Source: Roseovarius aestuarii
GTDB taxonomy: Bacteria; Pseudomonadota; Alphaproteobacteria; Rhodobacterales; Rhodobacteraceae
Assembly: GCF_019966515.1 (NCBI RefSeq)
Contig: NZ_JAIMIB010000022.1
Span: 1-64,000, forward strand
DNA: 64,000 bases
Direction of reading: 5' to 3'
Position numbers and translations under genes: made by a program
Shown: positions 27,223 through 63,140 of the stretch, piece by piece
Layout: the number at the start of each line of letters is the position of its first letter
Numbering within the stretch: position 1 is the stretch's first letter
Notes under the pieces: model-generated
What the model saw: the letters and a program-made list of their open reading frames with translations, nothing else
Databases searched by the model: none
Told to the model about the DNA's origin: nothing

Positions 27223-27230
27223 GATTTGTC
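27223..27230. repeat. Target-site duplication, left copy
   Basis: GATTTGTC lies directly outside the left terminal repeat and is repeated exactly at 30546-30553. An 8-bp duplication is the length expected for the IS1595 family. Confidence 0.9.
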
Positions 27231-27255
27231 CGGCCTTATGTATCAAACGCACCAA
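27231..27255 (+). repeat. Left terminal inverted repeat of the IS1595 transposon
   Basis: 25 bp identical to the reverse complement of 30521-30545. The tip is CGGCC. Confidence 0.92.
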
Positions 27256-27292
27256 GGTGTGAGCGATGATTAAGGTGATCGCACTGGCAGCC

Positions 27293-28234
27293 CTACTTAA
27301 TGTATCTGGCGAAGCTGTATTCCAGCATCCGTGCGGTGAAGGGTCCGAGGGGCTGATCGCGTGTTTCGAATGCAAACACGCGAGTTTCAACACCCATTTC
27401 ATTCGACCCCAAACCAAGCCGATAGCTAATACACACCAAGAGCAGAGCCTCTGCTTCCTGTATGTAGCCGGTTCCGTCAAGGTAGTTGACAACGCCAACG
27501 TGCTTGAATCGGCGAAGGTTGGTAGTTTCACCCGGAAACAGGACTGGGGATTGAGAGTAGCCCCGCCTGGAAATGGCCTCATTGGAAAATTCTTGAGCCA
27601 AATCTTCGATGCTCTTACGCCAGTCTTTTCTAATGGGCTTCCATTCAAGGACAACATCGTACGCTGGGGAAAGCCCCTTGTTTTCAAAGTTGTAATTCCA
27701 TGTGAAGCGAAAGCTGTCTTTCCCAAAGTGAACGTCGCACGCGACCTCATGAATGAGAGCAACCCAAGGTCGCTTCTCCAGCCGCATCATAGCGTTGGCT
27801 TCATTGGCGGCATTCGCCGCACCCAAGGCGGCAATATTGGTCTTATCGGCTTGGATGAGGGTTCTGCGAACGTAATAAACACCGGCGCCAGTAGCCAATA
27901 CACCAAGAAAAGTTACAACCAACATACCAAGCGCCCAAAGCGCCATTTCAGTTTGGGCTACAAGGTCATCCTCCATGCGCTCGTGTTCGTTGTTGGCTTC
28001 TATTACTTCACGTATGCACTTAGATTTGCTGCCGTCCTCAGGGAGGGCGAGGCACTTTTCTATATCTTCCTCGGTATGGCGGGCGTAGGTGTCGGTATTG
28101 GCGGCATTCTCGCCTATGGCTTCTCCGTGATGCCGCCCTAGAGAGTAGATAGAAAGTGTGGCTAAAGAAACTATCGCCAATATTGCTAGGGCGGTTACAG
28201 TCTTAAATCCTGTACCTCTATCGCCTTTAAACAT
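27293..28234 (-). CDS. Transposon passenger: two-helix membrane protein
   Basis: 313 residues. Helix one is near residues 12-32 (ALAILAIVSLATLSIYSLG) and helix two near 98-120 (GMLVVTFLGVLATGAGVYYV). Between them is a charged Glu/His-rich loop. After the second helix come a short coiled-coil-like segment (ALGAANAANEANAMM) and a beta-rich domain of about 160 residues. Its start overlaps the preceding DUF6471 gene by 40 bp in another frame, so the two are coupled. GC is lower than core. No homologue of known function is recognised. Confidence 0.65.
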   Translation of the reverse strand: MFKGDRGTGFKTVTALAILAIVSLATLSIYSLGRHHGEAIGENAANTDTYARHTEEDIEKCLALPEDGSKSKCIREVIEANNEHERMEDDLVAQTEMALWALGMLVVTFLGVLATGAGVYYVRRTLIQADKTNIAALGAANAANEANAMMRLEKRPWVALIHEVACDVHFGKDSFRFTWNYNFENKGLSPAYDVVLEWKPIRKDWRKSIEDLAQEFSNEAISRRGYSQSPVLFPGETTNLRRFKHVGVVNYLDGTGYIQEAEALLLVCISYRLGLGSNEMGVETRVFAFETRDQPLGPFTARMLEYSFARYIK

Positions 28235-28416
28235 GCCAACATAAACGCTGCGCTAAACTTCCCTCGGGATAGCTTATTGGCGACGTTCACCTCTTTCTCA
28301 CTGATTCCAATATCAGCAAGTCTTTCAACGAGTTGGGCATAAGTCACGCCCTTTCTCTTCAGCTCTGATTTCAACAGGTTTGCGGCCTGTTTTTCCCAAT
28401 CATTCTGCTCCGGCAT
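28195..28416 (-). CDS. Transposon passenger: DUF6471 protein
   Basis: 73 residues matching the DUF6471 pattern: EKQAANLLKSELKRKGVTYA then LVERLADIGISEKEVNVANK and GKFSAAFMLACLKAI. The fold is probably a small helix-turn-helix domain. It is a candidate regulator of the element and lies opposite the transposase across a 100-bp divergent promoter region. It overlaps the membrane-protein gene at its 3' end. Confidence 0.7.
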   Translation of the reverse strand: MPEQNDWEKQAANLLKSELKRKGVTYAQLVERLADIGISEKEVNVANKLSRGKFSAAFMLACLKAIEVQDLRL

Positions 28417-28488
28417 ATCGACTCCAATAAAAATATATCTTTTTTAGTATATAACCTATTGAAATCAGTATGTCATCTTACTATTTTT

Positions 28489-28502
28489 GTTATGAACATA
28501 AC
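28489..28502. promoter_or_regulatory. Palindrome in divergent promoter of the transposon
   Basis: GTTATG and CATAAC around an AA centre, in AT-rich DNA 15 bp before the transposase start and between it and the divergent DUF6471 gene. A possible operator for the DUF6471 protein; this is inference only. Confidence 0.4.
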
Positions 28503-28516
28503 GGATATAGTATAAA

Positions 28517-29479
28517 ATGGCCCAGCACTTTCTTCTCTCAGCAGCTTCCCGCACTCTTAGTCTTCGCTCGGTTTATAAGGCGGGCGAGGAGGCGGCCTAT
28601 CAGACGTTTTGTGAGATGCGCTGGCCTGAGACCAATGGCGAGGCCGTTTGCCCATGCTGCGGCTTTGATGAGGCGTACAAGATCACCACGCGCCGCAAGT
28701 TCAAGTGTAAGGCGTGTCACCACCAGTTCAGCGTGACCAGCGGCACAATATTTGCCAGCCGCAAGATGGGCTTTGTGGACCTGCTGGCCGCGATCTGCAT
28801 TGTCGTGAACGCGTCAAAGGGTGTGAGCATGGTACAGTTGTCGCGTGATCTGGATTGCCAGTACAAGACAGCCTTCGTGCTGGCCCACAAACTGCGCGAA
28901 GCGATGGCACTGGAAGTCCACACTGGTGAAGTTCTGGAAGGCCATGTTGAGATTGATGGCGCATATTTTGGCGGTCATATCCGCCCGGAGAACGCCAAGG
29001 CTGACCGCAAGGACCGTCGCTTAAAGCGTCACCAGACCGGCAAGCGCCGCGTTGTGATCGCTATGCGTGAGCGTGAGGGCCGCACACTGCCGTTCGTAGG
29101 TCAGTCTGAGGCAGAAGGGGTTGCTTTGGCTAACGAGAACGTATCGCGCCTGTCCACCATGTCAGCGGATGAGGCCAGCCATTGGGATGAATTGCACATG
29201 GGCTATCACGTCGACCGCGTGAACCACTCCGAGATTTACAGCGACCACGGCAAGCACACCAATTGGGTTGAAAGCTATTTCTCGCGCTTGCGCCGCATGG
29301 TGCAGGGCCAGCATCATCACGTCAGCCCGCAGTACCTTTACCAGTATGCGAACCATGCCGCATGGCTGGAAGACAACCGCCGGACCGATAACGGGACACT
29401 GGCGCAGATTGTAGTTTCTAACTCAATGACAGCGCCAGTATCGCGCCAATGGAAGGGCTACTGGCAGCGGTCTGCATAA
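28517..29479 (+). CDS. IS1595-family transposase (ISXO2-like)
   Basis: 320 residues. The N-terminal zinc ribbon is CPCCGF... KFKCKACHHQFSVTSGTIF. The ISXO2-like catalytic domain follows, with HVEIDGAYFGG (first Asp) and SDHGKHTNWVESYFSRLRR (Glu of the triad with the family's NWVE-FS motif). Full length, no stops or frameshifts. Belongs to the 3.3-kb element with matching ends. The start ATG is preceded by an AT-rich promoter region. Confidence 0.93.
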   Translation: MAQHFLLSAASRTLSLRSVYKAGEEAAYQTFCEMRWPETNGEAVCPCCGFDEAYKITTRRKFKCKACHHQFSVTSGTIFASRKMGFVDLLAAICIVVNASKGVSMVQLSRDLDCQYKTAFVLAHKLREAMALEVHTGEVLEGHVEIDGAYFGGHIRPENAKADRKDRRLKRHQTGKRRVVIAMREREGRTLPFVGQSEAEGVALANENVSRLSTMSADEASHWDELHMGYHVDRVNHSEIYSDHGKHTNWVESYFSRLRRMVQGQHHHVSPQYLYQYANHAAWLEDNRRTDNGTLAQIVVSNSMTAPVSRQWKGYWQRSA

Positions 29480-29543
29480 GCCTCGGCACAAAATCGTGTG
29501 GTGAGCACTAGACACAAGGGCATATGATTCGGTAAAAGAAAAA

Positions 29544-29571
29544 CGCCTGAACCGTTGGAGCGGTTCAGGCG
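29544..29571. terminator. Hairpin after the transposase gene
   Basis: An 11-bp perfect stem CGCCTGAACCG / CGGTTCAGGCG with a 6-nt loop. A-rich flanks on its left would give a T-run on the minus strand, so it best terminates leftward transcription, but it can also end the transposase messenger. Confidence 0.75.
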
Positions 29572-29680
29572 AAAATGAAACCACCGTTGGCCGGTGGAAG
29601 TTTGAGAATTCTCACTGGGTTTTTACCCATATGTGGAATCACAAGTCAAGTCGGCCAACACATCGCAAGGAGAAAAAGCG

Positions 29681-30043
29681 ATGAATACGACTGTGACTTG
29701 GACCGGAAATTCCGGTTCTCAATACCGTTTCGATGTGTTTCCAGTAGGAACGCAGTTCAATCCAATATCAGGTGTCTATGTCGCCTGTAGGCGGCTCATT
29801 ACCGGACAGTTTGAGGCCCTCTATGTCGGCGAGACACAATCCTTCAAGGATCGTCTTAACGTCAATGCCGGGAATCACGATGGGCTCAGGTGTGCTGCTC
29901 GCAATGGCATGACGCATATTGGTGCCATCGTCTCGACCAGTAGTGCCGAGCGCCTGCGGATTGAAACTGATTTGCGGCATGGCCTTAATCCTTCCTGCAA
30001 CAAGCAGTCAGTTAATCCTAGACTGAATATGCGGCGTAGATAA
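29681..30043 (+). CDS. Transposon passenger: GIY-YIG-like nuclease domain protein
   Basis: 120 residues. SGVYVACRR and, 12 residues later, ALYVGETQSFKDRL match the GIY and YIG elements, with Arg in the following helix; a Glu near the end (RIETDLRHGLNPSCNKQ) fits the catalytic glutamate and the NPSCN tail common in the family. The ATG at 29681 is chosen for its AAGGAG site. Function in the element is unknown; it could be a DNA nuclease or a degenerate DNA-binding relic. Confidence 0.65.
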   Translation: MNTTVTWTGNSGSQYRFDVFPVGTQFNPISGVYVACRRLITGQFEALYVGETQSFKDRLNVNAGNHDGLRCAARNGMTHIGAIVSTSSAERLRIETDLRHGLNPSCNKQSVNPRLNMRRR

Positions 30044-30057
30044 GGCGACACATCGAC

Positions 30058-30477
30058 TCAGGGCTGGCCCTTCGGGGCCAGTTTCCACAAACACCCATCC
30101 GGCCCAAAGTCCTGCACCACATGCCCGTCTTTCTGCGCCCTCTGGATTGCATGACGCACCCGCTTAAGCACATCGGCGTGAATATCATCGCCCCAGCCCT
30201 TGGACGCAATGATCCGCGCCGCAATCGTCTCATCATCCGCAGGTTCTTTACGAAGCATTGTAATGATCGTCAGCTTCAACTCATTGCGCCCGAATAGCTG
30301 CTTGTACTTCCCACGCGGCGCTATGCCCCTGGGATCGTCCGTATAGCCACACAGCACCAGTGCACGGTCTATGGCGTCCAGATCGGCCTTAAGCGCATCT
30401 GCGGCCTTCACAGCGGCCTTGTGCTGGCCTGCTATCTCGCCGCGTTTCTTGATCAGTCCGAATATCGTATGCTCCAT
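30058..30477 (-). CDS. Transposon passenger: 139-residue unknown protein
   Basis: The first 45 residues are a charged helix (coiled-coil-like: LIKKRGEIAGQHKAAVKAAD). The rest resembles a small winged-helix region (TIITMLRKEPADDETIAARI). It starts 44 bp from the right terminal repeat. The protein is Lys/Asp-rich and has no recognised domain name. Possibly DNA-binding, by composition only. Confidence 0.55.
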   Translation of the reverse strand: MEHTIFGLIKKRGEIAGQHKAAVKAADALKADLDAIDRALVLCGYTDDPRGIAPRGKYKQLFGRNELKLTIITMLRKEPADDETIAARIIASKGWGDDIHADVLKRVRHAIQRAQKDGHVVQDFGPDGCLWKLAPKGQP

Positions 30478-30520
30478 GCCCTATTATGGATTCACGCGGC
30501 CCGATTGTTCAGATAGAATG

Positions 30521-30545
30521 TTGGTGCGTTTGATACATAAGGCCG
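30521..30545 (-). repeat. Right terminal inverted repeat of the IS1595 transposon
   Basis: 25 bp, exact reverse complement of the left repeat at 27231-27255, followed immediately by the duplicated GATTTGTC. Confidence 0.92.
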
Positions 30546-30553
30546 GATTTGTC
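30546..30553. repeat. Target-site duplication, right copy
   Basis: GATTTGTC, identical to 27223-27230. It runs into a perfect 8-bp-arm palindrome at 30550-30566 (TGTCCGCT-G-AGCGGACA), so the element inserted at the edge of a hairpin. Confidence 0.9.
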
Positions 30554-61466: not shown

Positions 61467-63140
61467 TTAATGCGCGTGGCCCTTGTCCCATTCTTCCTGC
61501 TTCGGCAGGATCTCGAACGTGTGTTCGGGCGGGGGTGAGGGCAGGGTCCATTCCAGCGTGTCAGCGTACTCGTTCCACGGATTGTTCTCGGTCACCCGTG
61601 CGCCGCGCAGTAGCGTGTAGGCGACAATGCCGAAGAAGAACACGAAGGACGCAAAGCTGAGGAAGGCGCCGATCGATGACCACCAGTTCCAGGGCGCGAA
61701 GGCCTCGGGGTAGTCGATGTAGCGGCGCGGCATGCCCTGACGGCCCAGGAAGTGCTGTGGAAAGAAGGTCAGGTTTGCACCGATGAACATCGCCCAGAAA
61801 TGCAGCTTGCCGGCCCATTCGGGGTACATCCGCCCGGTCATCTTGGGGAAGTAGAAATACATGCCCGCAAAGATGGCGAAGACGGCACCCAGGCTCATCA
61901 CATAGTGGAAGTGTGCCACGACATAGTAGGTGTCGTGATAGGCACGGTCGATGCCGGCCTGGCTAAGCACGATGCCGGTCACGCCGCCCACGGTGAAGAG
62001 AAAGAGGAAGCCAAAGGCCCAGAGCATGGGCGTCTTGAATTCGATCGAGCCGCCCCACATTGTGGCGATCCAGCTGAAAACCTTCACGCCGGTGGGCACC
62101 GCGATCACCATCGTCGCCAGCATGAAGTAGCTTTGCTGGGTCAGCGACATGCCTACGGTGTACATGTGGTGCGCCCAGACGACGAAGCCAAGGAAGCCGA
62201 TGGCGATCAGCGCCCAGACCATCGGCAGGTAGCCGAAGACCGGTTTGCGCGAGAAGGTCGCGATGACGTGGCTGATGATGCCGAAGCCCGGAAGGATGAT
62301 GATATACACCTCCGGGTGGCCAAAGAACCAAAGTATGTGCTGGTAGAGGATCGGGTCGCCGCCGCCTGCGGGATCAAAGAAGGTCGTCCCGAAGTTGCGG
62401 TCTGTCAGAAGCATGGTGATGGCGCCCGCCAGAACCGGCAGCGACAGAAGAATCAGCCATGCAGTGACGAAGATCGACCACGAGAATAGCGGCACCTTGA
62501 ACAGTGTCATGCCGGGCGCGCGCATGTTCAGGAAGGTGGTGATCATGTTGATCGCGCCAAGAATCGAGCTTGCGCCCGAAACGTGCACAGCGAAGATCGC
62601 CAGGTCCATCGACATGCCCTGTTCGGTCGTGGAAAGTGGCGGGTAAAGCACCCAGCCGACGCCTGAGCCTAGCTGGCCGTTACCACCCGGGCTGAGCAAC
62701 GAGGCGACACCCAGCGACGTCCCGGCAACATAGAGCCAGAAGCTGAGGTTGTTCATCCGCGGGAATGCCATATCGGGCGCACCGATCTGCAACGGCATGA
62801 AATAGTTGCCAAAACCACCGAAAAGCGCCGGAATCACCACAAAGAACATCATCAGAACGCCGTGATAGGTGATCATCACGTTCCAGAGATGCCCGTTGGG
62901 GGTACATTCACCTGCGGCAGCGGCGAAGAACCGAGCGCCTTCAAGGCACATGTACTGAACGCCCGGCTCCATCAGTTCGAGCCGCATGTAAACGGTAAAC
63001 GCGACCGAGATCAGACCGACGAACGCCGATACGACCAGGTAGAGGATACCGATATCCTTGTGGTTGGTGGACATGAACCAGCGCGTGAAAAAGCTGCGCT
63101 CGTCATGATGATCGTGGCCGTGAATGGCTGCATCTGCCAT
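61467..63140 (-). CDS. ctaD: Cytochrome c oxidase subunit I (aa3 type)
   Basis: 557 residues; haem-copper terminal oxidase with 12 helices. Cu-B and haem ligands are present: [17 protein letters not shown] (His and cross-linked Tyr), [11 protein letters not shown] (two His) and [14 protein letters not shown] (haem His). The Glu of the D-channel is in place. The ATG at 63140 has AGGAGG. Other ctaC-G genes are not in this window. Confidence 0.97.

Follow-up and report, generated by a model that had tools for sequence, protein, structure and literature searches.

Results

A complete IS1595-family transposon in Roseovarius aestuarii

We analysed a stretch of 64,000 nucleotides from Roseovarius aestuarii (positions 1 to 64,000 of contig NZ_JAIMIB010000022.1; referred to here as the window), in which a transposon of the IS1595 family carries four genes in addition to its transposase gene. 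Comparison with its relatives indicates that two of them, coding for a DUF6471 protein and a right-end protein that we termed RP, form a constant backbone together with the transposase, and that the other two lie in slots of variable content. The original prediction had described a complete IS1595-type transposon with 25-bp ends, an exact 8-bp duplication and a full-length transposase, and all of these are present. The element spans 27231-30545 (3315 bp) and is bounded by inverted ends (CGGCCTTATGTATCAAACGCACCAA) at 27231-27255 (plus strand) and 30521-30545 (minus strand) that are identical over 25/25 bp and for which a consensus was derived from the 71 elements described below. It is flanked by the 8-bp direct repeats GATTTGTC at 27223-27230 and 30546-30553, which are identical (8/8); the inverted pairing scores 27 nt, as two bases of the duplication extend the 25-bp ends by chance. 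Because a 23-base end pattern, allowing up to 3 mismatches, occurs eight times in the genome itself compared to zero occurrences of the pattern read backwards, the end matches exceed chance. We searched 84 genomes of the genus with the joined flanks and found no empty site; outside the genome itself, matches were one-sided only. Since a continuous match across the joined flanks was absent from every genus genome other than that of R. aestuarii, we infer the insertion from the duplication alone, and the uninterrupted related genome that the original prediction had named as evidence against itself was not found among these 84.

All four ORFs (open reading frames) that had been predicted besides the transposase were recovered in place. 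The leftmost (27293-28234, minus strand) codes for a 313-amino-acid protein with two transmembrane segments (residues 7-34 and 95-122), which remained without a match in Pfam and NCBIfam at E 0.1 and in PADLOC at E 1. It overlaps by 40 bp with the ORF of the 73-amino-acid DUF6471 protein (28195-28416, minus strand), a putative regulator of the C-protein/XRE type that matches PF20075 with an E-value of 4e-31 and 107.1 bits against a curated cut-off of 26.8. The transposase gene (28517-29479, plus strand, 320 amino acids) is followed by a gene for a 120-amino-acid GIY-YIG-type nuclease (29681-30043, plus strand, with the ORF possibly starting at 29633) and by the RP gene (30058-30477, minus strand, 139 amino acids). 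GIY-YIG catalytic residues follow the order Y, Y, R, E, N; in the window protein, Y33, Y48, G50, R58, E95 and N107 are invariant in five aligned sequences, and no Pfam profile, GIY-YIG included, matches it up to E 0.1. A 60%-identical homologue (L173 in genome G168) is surrounded by 9.5 kb without transposase, DUF6471 or family ends, so the GIY-YIG gene of the window also lives outside the transposon.

The transposase matches the Pfam profiles DDE_Tnp_IS1595 (PF12762, E=1.4e-37, 129.5 bits against a cut-off of 27) and, in its N-terminal zinc ribbon, Zn_ribbon_IS1595 (PF12760, E=2.4e-14), as well as the NCBIfam profile transpos_IS1595 (NF033547, E=2.3e-44, 151.9 bits against a cut-off of 75). 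With this catalytic domain, the zinc ribbon, inverted ends and an 8-bp target duplication, the window element has the features by which IS1595 members are recognized. The transposase also matches the PHROGs phage-protein family phrog_25593, to which PHROGs assigns no function (E 8.7e-74), which places relatives of the element or of its genes in phage genomes as well; the other proteins of the element gave only weak PHROGs matches. The blocks EIDGAYFG, IYSDHG and NWVESYFSRLR resemble the catalytic blocks given for IS1016-type members in the excerpted text of PMC12561309. According to the excerpt of PMC8101967, the family comprises the groups IS1016, ISPna2, ISH4, IS1595, ISSod11, ISNwi and ISNha5 and produces 8-bp duplications; in the excerpt of PMC3646047, IS1595 appears once, in a count table.

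A family with a constant backbone and two variable slots

A transposase scan of 84,980 species genomes confirmed 278 loci, and our analysis covers the 80 best-scoring ones. Ends were accepted with at most 4 mismatches and 1.8-6 kb apart; 11 of the 80 loci were dropped, and the remaining 69 together with the two elements of the R. aestuarii genome gave 71 delimited elements. Going by record titles, most come from Rhodobacteraceae and a few from bins that are named otherwise. The recurrent layout is left end, slot A, DUF6471, transposase, slot B, RP and right end, with slot A defined as the region from the left end to DUF6471 and slot B as that from the transposase to RP. Conserved gene order inside matching ends, which the original prediction had named as support for a family, is what these elements show. 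Using profiles built here, we detected the transposase in 71/71, DUF6471 in 70/71 and RP in 69/71 elements. RP is fragmented in L099 and L117 and lies on the opposite strand in L106, and traces of it are visible in L068 and L109, the two elements scored as RP-negative. Element lengths range from 2346 to 4633 bp, and none of the 71 consists of the transposase only. Alignments included 66/69 RP, 55/70 DUF6471, 93/99 slot B and 66/76 slot A sequences.

Of the four genes that had been taken together as passengers, only those for the membrane protein and the GIY-YIG protein vary as passengers would, whereas DUF6471 and RP belong to the backbone. A single four-gene cargo module was rejected, two of its genes being near-universal and two variable.

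By eye, slot A of L065 and the right part of L074 contain nested ORFs resembling other transposases, which would account for these being the two longest elements. Three more distant relatives are found on plasmids: L016 (1132 bp) has only the transposase and an exact duplication, L015 (1543 bp) has an RP-like gene as its sole addition and also an exact duplication, and L014 (4803 bp) carries DUF6471 with a duplication matching at 7/8 positions. The existence of shorter plasmid relatives suggests that an ancestral simple insertion sequence later gained the backbone and the slots.

Overall, we consider it probable that these elements combine the constant backbone with two exchange slots, that DUF6471 acts as a repressor of the transposase, and that the slots shuttle defence or toxin-antitoxin cassettes, with binding, repression and defence all being predictions.

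Probable exchange of slot contents

In slot A, 76 ORFs of at least 80 amino acids fall into 21 clusters, the largest of which (30/76) includes the window protein; in slot B, 99 ORFs of at least 65 amino acids fall into 73 clusters, and some of these called ORFs are surely spurious, which we count below among the points that weigh on our reading. In pairwise DNA comparisons, most of the homology falls into three regions: the left end, the transposase ORF, in many cases together with DUF6471, and the RP gene with the right end. For instance, the islands shared by L056 and L072, from one Sulfitobacter metagenome bin, are the transposase ORF and terminal stretches of 27 bp (left) and 90 bp (right). 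Homology is wider in some pairs, extending over slot A between L059 and both L072 and L070, and over slot B between L060 and L107.

A second complete element, with its own duplication GACAAACC, lies on contig 12 of the R. aestuarii genome. Its DNA is 87% identical to the window element in the transposase gene, 90% in the RP region, and 77% over 588 bp that run from the left end to within the gene for the membrane protein; the DUF6471 proteins are 53% identical, and two other ORFs stand in place of the GIY-YIG gene. Thus, differing cargo between similar ends, which had been set beforehand as the sign of cassette exchange, was seen, and an outcome that had been named as refuting the prediction, the whole gene order without transposase and ends, was found at 0/11 loci in an examination that was not exhaustive.

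We mapped slot A classes onto a quick transposase tree (59 elements in 7 recurrent classes). Because 200/200 shuffles reached as few changes as the 29 observed (shuffled mean 27.2), the slot A classes are not clustered on this tree. Vertical inheritance of the cargo together with the transposase was rejected, both for this reason and for a correlation of only 0.06 between DUF6471 and transposase similarity. Two slot A classes accompany the GIY-YIG cluster and three the BstA cluster, in which one member of five lies on the opposite strand. GC content is 0.593 in the transposase gene and 0.594 in RP, compared to 0.512 in slot A, 0.495 in slot B and 0.625 in the flanks. Both slots appear to have been replaced repeatedly. 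Because the homology islands coincide with the ends, the transposase ORF and the RP/right-end region, recombination between co-resident elements through these segments would be the likeliest route.

Target sites and copy number

Among the 67/69 relatives with both flanks, the duplication matched at 8/8 positions in 61, at 7/8 in two and at 3/8 or fewer in four. The target preference, derived from 65 elements, resembles S-A-W-A-T-W-T-S and is roughly palindromic about a central AT. ORFs of at least 150 amino acids span 65% of 51 insertion points compared to 95% of 467 random flank points, which suggests that insertions either spare genes or favour AT-rich DNA. By eye, L070 and L120, from two genomes, are inserted into similar HNH-like genes at an identical position without a target duplication, and they carry different transposases and cargo.

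Transposase matches at E 1e-100 or better were found in 27/394 genomes of the host family; 26 of the 27 carry a single match, in some cases a partial one, and the R. aestuarii genome alone has two. At E 1e-40, 10/84 genus genomes match, and the two matches in G207 are pieces of one broken gene. Elsewhere in the R. aestuarii genome (G000), contig 5 has facing family ends (a CAGACGCACC variant) about 20 bp apart at 61491-61562 (L012), which suggests a MITE-like (miniature inverted-repeat transposable element) or collapsed element with no clear duplication. Single ends, without a partner at the threshold used, lie on contig 8 (2072-2094) and contig 44 (118196-118218) and are possible relics of other insertions.

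Predicted functions of the cargo

The 93 slot B ORFs matched 23 Pfam families, including the Panacea antitoxin family (5), KilA-N, M78, NYN and HTH_3 (3 each), DUF3800 and DUF4258 (2 each) and single matches to HicA, HicB-like, RelE, MqsA, RhuM and SDH-protease. With PADLOC, for which the slot B figures are derived from 25 of 65 families, the 93 ORFs yielded BstA (5), RmrA (4), HEC-09 (3), capP (3) and PDC-S05 (1); HEC and PDC denote candidate systems in PADLOC. The best BstA match was the slot B protein of L059 (E 3.1e-122), and the other four members (L060, L063, L087 and L107) were assigned through cluster B0. Besides L059, 10 slot B proteins were tested singly: L105 matched PDC-S05, L126 HEC-09, L118 capP/RmrA and L110 PDC-M04A, and six had no PADLOC match. 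As a control, we drew 93 length-matched flanking ORFs from a pool of 484 ORFs at 49 of the same loci. These gave one PADLOC match each to HEC-09 (E 2.8e-30), PsyrT, ShosT, SduA and DpdF, the last four being weak, and 25 of their 46 Pfam families were considered, mostly of metabolic or housekeeping types.

Slot A mostly holds membrane proteins, with at least one predicted transmembrane segment in 50/63 ORFs of recurrent clusters. Pfam also identified four M78 peptidases in this slot, and PADLOC, applied to 66 ORFs, yielded four capP/RmrA-type and two PDC-S42 matches.

DUF6471 and the operator-like repeats

The structure model of DUF6471 has a pLDDT (predicted local distance difference test) of 94, with a helix predicted at residues 42-51. 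Among the 50 Foldseek matches listed, most are helix-turn-helix regulators (C-proteins, HipB, ClgR), with probabilities of 0.75-1.00, query template-modelling scores of 0.57-0.76 and a best E-value of only 0.14.

The gap between DUF6471 and the transposase gene measures 97-106 bp in 65/70 elements, to which the operator tests refer. It contains repeats spaced by 43 bp (z=19.7), with further signal at 63 and 20-21 bp. An exact 8-mer is shared at the 43-bp spacing in 21 elements, compared to at most 0.3 for any spacing after shuffling; simple inverted-repeat counts are weakly above shuffles. In the window, the operator-like repeats O1 (28433-28454, plus strand) and O2 (28476-28497, plus strand) lie 43 bp apart, and O2 overlaps a promoter-like second hexamer (28482-28487) whose promoter match is at chance level. 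A probable inverted copy, O3 (28497-28516, minus strand), adjoins the transposase start; it corresponds to the autocorrelation at 63 and 20-21 bp, and its inversion was read by eye. O1 and O2 are 0.63 identical within an element compared to 0.35 between elements, with 0.44 as the best of 2000 permutations.

Across 60 elements, operator similarity correlates with DUF6471 similarity at a rank r of 0.71 (0/500 permutations as high), compared to 0.05 for the transposase and 0.10 for RP, even though about 40 bp at most separate O2 from the transposase start. The DUF6471 columns most informative about the operator are, by z-score, residues 53, 46, 49 and 41, all in or beside the predicted helix, and residues 43 and 45 rank sixth and tenth. 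Because of the helix-turn-helix-like fold, the operator spacing and this covariation, DUF6471 appears to repress the transposase in the manner of a C-protein. Two genomes contain a pair of elements (the R. aestuarii genome with the window and contig 12 elements, and the Sulfitobacter bin with L056 and L072), and in both the pair differs in operator type as judged by eye. Such differences would fit repressor immunity classes, and two pairs are far too few to prove them.

Two DUF6471 subtypes, differing by about 5 residues, follow the orientation of slot A: 32 elements are long/minus, 21 are short/plus and 5 are exceptions, a count that leaves out 12 elements without a recurrent slot A.

RP and backbone genes outside intact elements

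RP had been described as a helical protein of unknown kind. The helical part of this description holds, and the model (pLDDT 92) refines it to a long N-terminal helix followed by a predicted winged helix, with winged-helix matches in the PDB (best E 0.0084); as a backbone gene, RP is more than a passenger.

Seven genomes have DUF6471 without a close transposase. In four of them a family end lies nearby, and a fifth, G149, contains RP together with pieces of a transposase at 45-50% identity. L172 (G067 contig 15, 3535-4769) combines DUF6471 and a homologue of slot A with two ends, which carry 3 and 4 mismatches, and its flanking 8-mers do not match. Because ends, slot A and DUF6471 are present without a transposase, L172 is probably a non-autonomous derivative.

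Discussion

Proposed mechanism

Judging from the many duplications rather than from observed movement, the transposase would move everything between the ends and leave 8-bp duplications at an AT-centred target. DUF6471 would bind the operator repeats in the gap of about 100 bp that separates its gene from the divergently oriented transposase gene, and its fold, the operator spacing and the covariation suggest that it controls itself, the transposase and, where this is on the same strand, the downstream slot A gene. Elements differ in operator and recognition-helix class; elements of one class would silence each other, and different classes could share a genome. Slot B, and perhaps a membrane-protein slot A, may carry toxin-antitoxin or anti-phage genes that reward the host when it retains the element.

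More tentatively, and with rather less confidence than in the reading above, we propose that the family works as a two-slot cassette exchanger, in which class-specific operators of DUF6471 define immunity classes, a cell harbours only elements that differ in class, and such co-residents recombine through the transposase and ends they have in common, reshuffling anti-phage and toxin-antitoxin cassettes across marine alphaproteobacteria. If true, this would make each element a pocket-size mobile defence island.

Counter-evidence and alternative explanations

Several observations weigh against the reading of a repressed backbone with defence cassettes, the whole of whose evidence is computational and comes from sequences and models. 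The weightiest question is whether the slot genes protect their host at all. For many slot B ORFs, Pfam gave no known domain, in addition to the spurious calls mentioned above, and the four non-transposase proteins of the window have no PADLOC match up to E 1. Two Panacea proteins and the SDH-protease protein were also without a PADLOC match, and the capP/RmrA matches follow a shared peptidase domain rather than a complete system. The slot B ORFs without a known domain and the absence of PADLOC matches for the window cargo would suit an ordinary IS1595 transposon with random hitchhiker genes, the defence look of which is a general trait of mobile DNA cargo; passenger genes are, moreover, reportedly known from IS1595 members (Siguier et al. 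are said to have described them in 2009). However, slot B families recur in one functional colour (BstA, Panacea, NYN, M78 and DUF3800, with single HicA, HicB-like, RelE and RhuM), the flank ORFs mostly belong to metabolic or housekeeping families, the slot positions are fixed and the elements are compact, so we regard random hitchhiking as unlikely, if still the best-placed of the alternatives.

Distinctly unlikely, in our view, is that DUF6471 and the overlapping slot A membrane protein form a toxin-antitoxin-like addiction pair (helix-turn-helix antitoxin and membrane toxin) whose operon alone the operators serve. The overlap of the two genes on the same strand in the largest class, the tracking of slot A orientation by the DUF6471 subtype and the HipB-like fold all fit such a pair, but DUF6471 is kept where the slot A gene is unrelated or on the opposite strand, and the transposase start is no more than about 40 bp away from O2 and O3.

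Control of the transposase by DUF6471, as we propose, faces objections of its own. None of the Foldseek matches of DUF6471 or RP reaches E 0.001, and a promoter scan of the intergenic region gave matches at chance level. Position 16, which the helix does not include, is the fifth most informative DUF6471 residue, and places seven to nine are taken by 12, 4 and 9. The O1-O2 spacer correlates with the DUF6471 helix at 0.55, and the correlation of O2 with the remainder of DUF6471 (0.67) approaches that with the helix (0.72), the partial correlations being 0.36 and 0.49. Because the spacer and the non-helix part also correlate, part of the operator signal reflects linkage or common descent as a block. 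That pure physical linkage, with neighbouring DNA exchanged as a block, explains all of the covariation is nevertheless improbable: two separate sites stay alike within each element, the segment beside the DUF6471 start correlates at only 0.17 and synonymous sites at 0.23-0.27, the correlation between O2 and the helix remains 0.71 after controlling for synonymous-site similarity, and all four top-ranking residues fall within or next to the predicted recognition helix.

The least probable alternative, that DUF6471 and RP are architectural or target-choosing transposition helpers acting at the ends instead of regulators, would fit their near-universal presence in the sampled clade and the position of RP, a predicted winged-helix protein starting near the right end, but the distant relatives L016, with neither gene, and L015, with only an RP-like one, have exact duplications, and the DUF6471-linked repeats adjoin the transposase start rather than the ends.

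The remaining objections to a constant, repressed backbone concern gene distribution and copy number. Among 198 genomes of the host family, the transposase occurs in 14, DUF6471 in 20 and RP in 18. In G009 and G054, DUF6471 has neither a family end nor transposase fragments nearby, and RP is found in three genomes without a transposase match (G020, G022 and G158). The copy-number count scored at most five candidates per genome, so that extra copies could be missed, and the prediction that co-residents differ in class draws on two genomes, one of them a metagenome bin with uncertain membership.

Should our reading hold, DUF6471 would gain a testable function, along with a predicted operator and naturally occurring specificity variants, and the family would be a small vehicle whose defence and toxin-antitoxin genes are reshuffled independently of phages and large islands. 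The domain-less slot B proteins would be candidates for new defence or toxin-antitoxin genes, bounded by exact transposon ends.

Comparison with known systems

In the open-licence literature that we searched, DUF6471 is named in no paper, no description of a two-slot IS1595 family was found among the titles and abstract starts listed, and mentions of ISNwi1 were unrelated by title and abstract. Passenger genes in IS1595 members are, as said, reportedly known. What appears to be new, compared with the open-licence literature, is the fixed three-gene backbone with two exchange slots in a passenger-carrying IS1595 element. The IS1595 family as recorded in ISfinder shares with our elements the DDE_Tnp_IS1595 and zinc-ribbon domains, the inverted ends and the 8-bp duplications; our elements differ, in a comparison made at the level of the family, in their fixed backbone, their operator-linked regulator, their two slots and their length of 2.35-4.63 kb, with none of the 71 being transposase-only.

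C-proteins of restriction-modification systems and HipB-type regulators would share with DUF6471 a small helical helix-turn-helix fold, as predicted by its model, and self-control through repeated operators; DUF6471 differs in adjoining a transposase gene, and its best Foldseek E-value is the 0.14 given above. The Tn3 transposase is unrelated to that of IS1595. Toxin-antitoxin pairs integral to Tn3-family transposons are already known, and in the excerpt of Lima-Mendez et al. (2020, PMC7157771) such genes are recruited repeatedly or exchanged, much as in the slots, with a proposed link to transposition control; here, the cargo includes anti-phage-type genes and the candidate regulator is separate. 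Likewise already known, from the excerpted text of Benler et al. (2021, PMC8649781), is the defence, toxin-antitoxin and other cargo that varies inside delimited Tn7-like transposons. These differ by their Tn7 machinery, whereas our elements mostly hold one or two small genes in each of two slots. Finally, 5/93 slot B ORFs match the PADLOC profile of BstA, a prophage abortive-infection protein that, in the excerpt of Owen et al. (2021, PMC8585504), sits behind the repressor of the prophage. In our family, the BstA-type genes, which are so classed by profile only and are absent from the window copy, lie between the transposase and RP, and the family may account for some of the BstA genes outside prophages.

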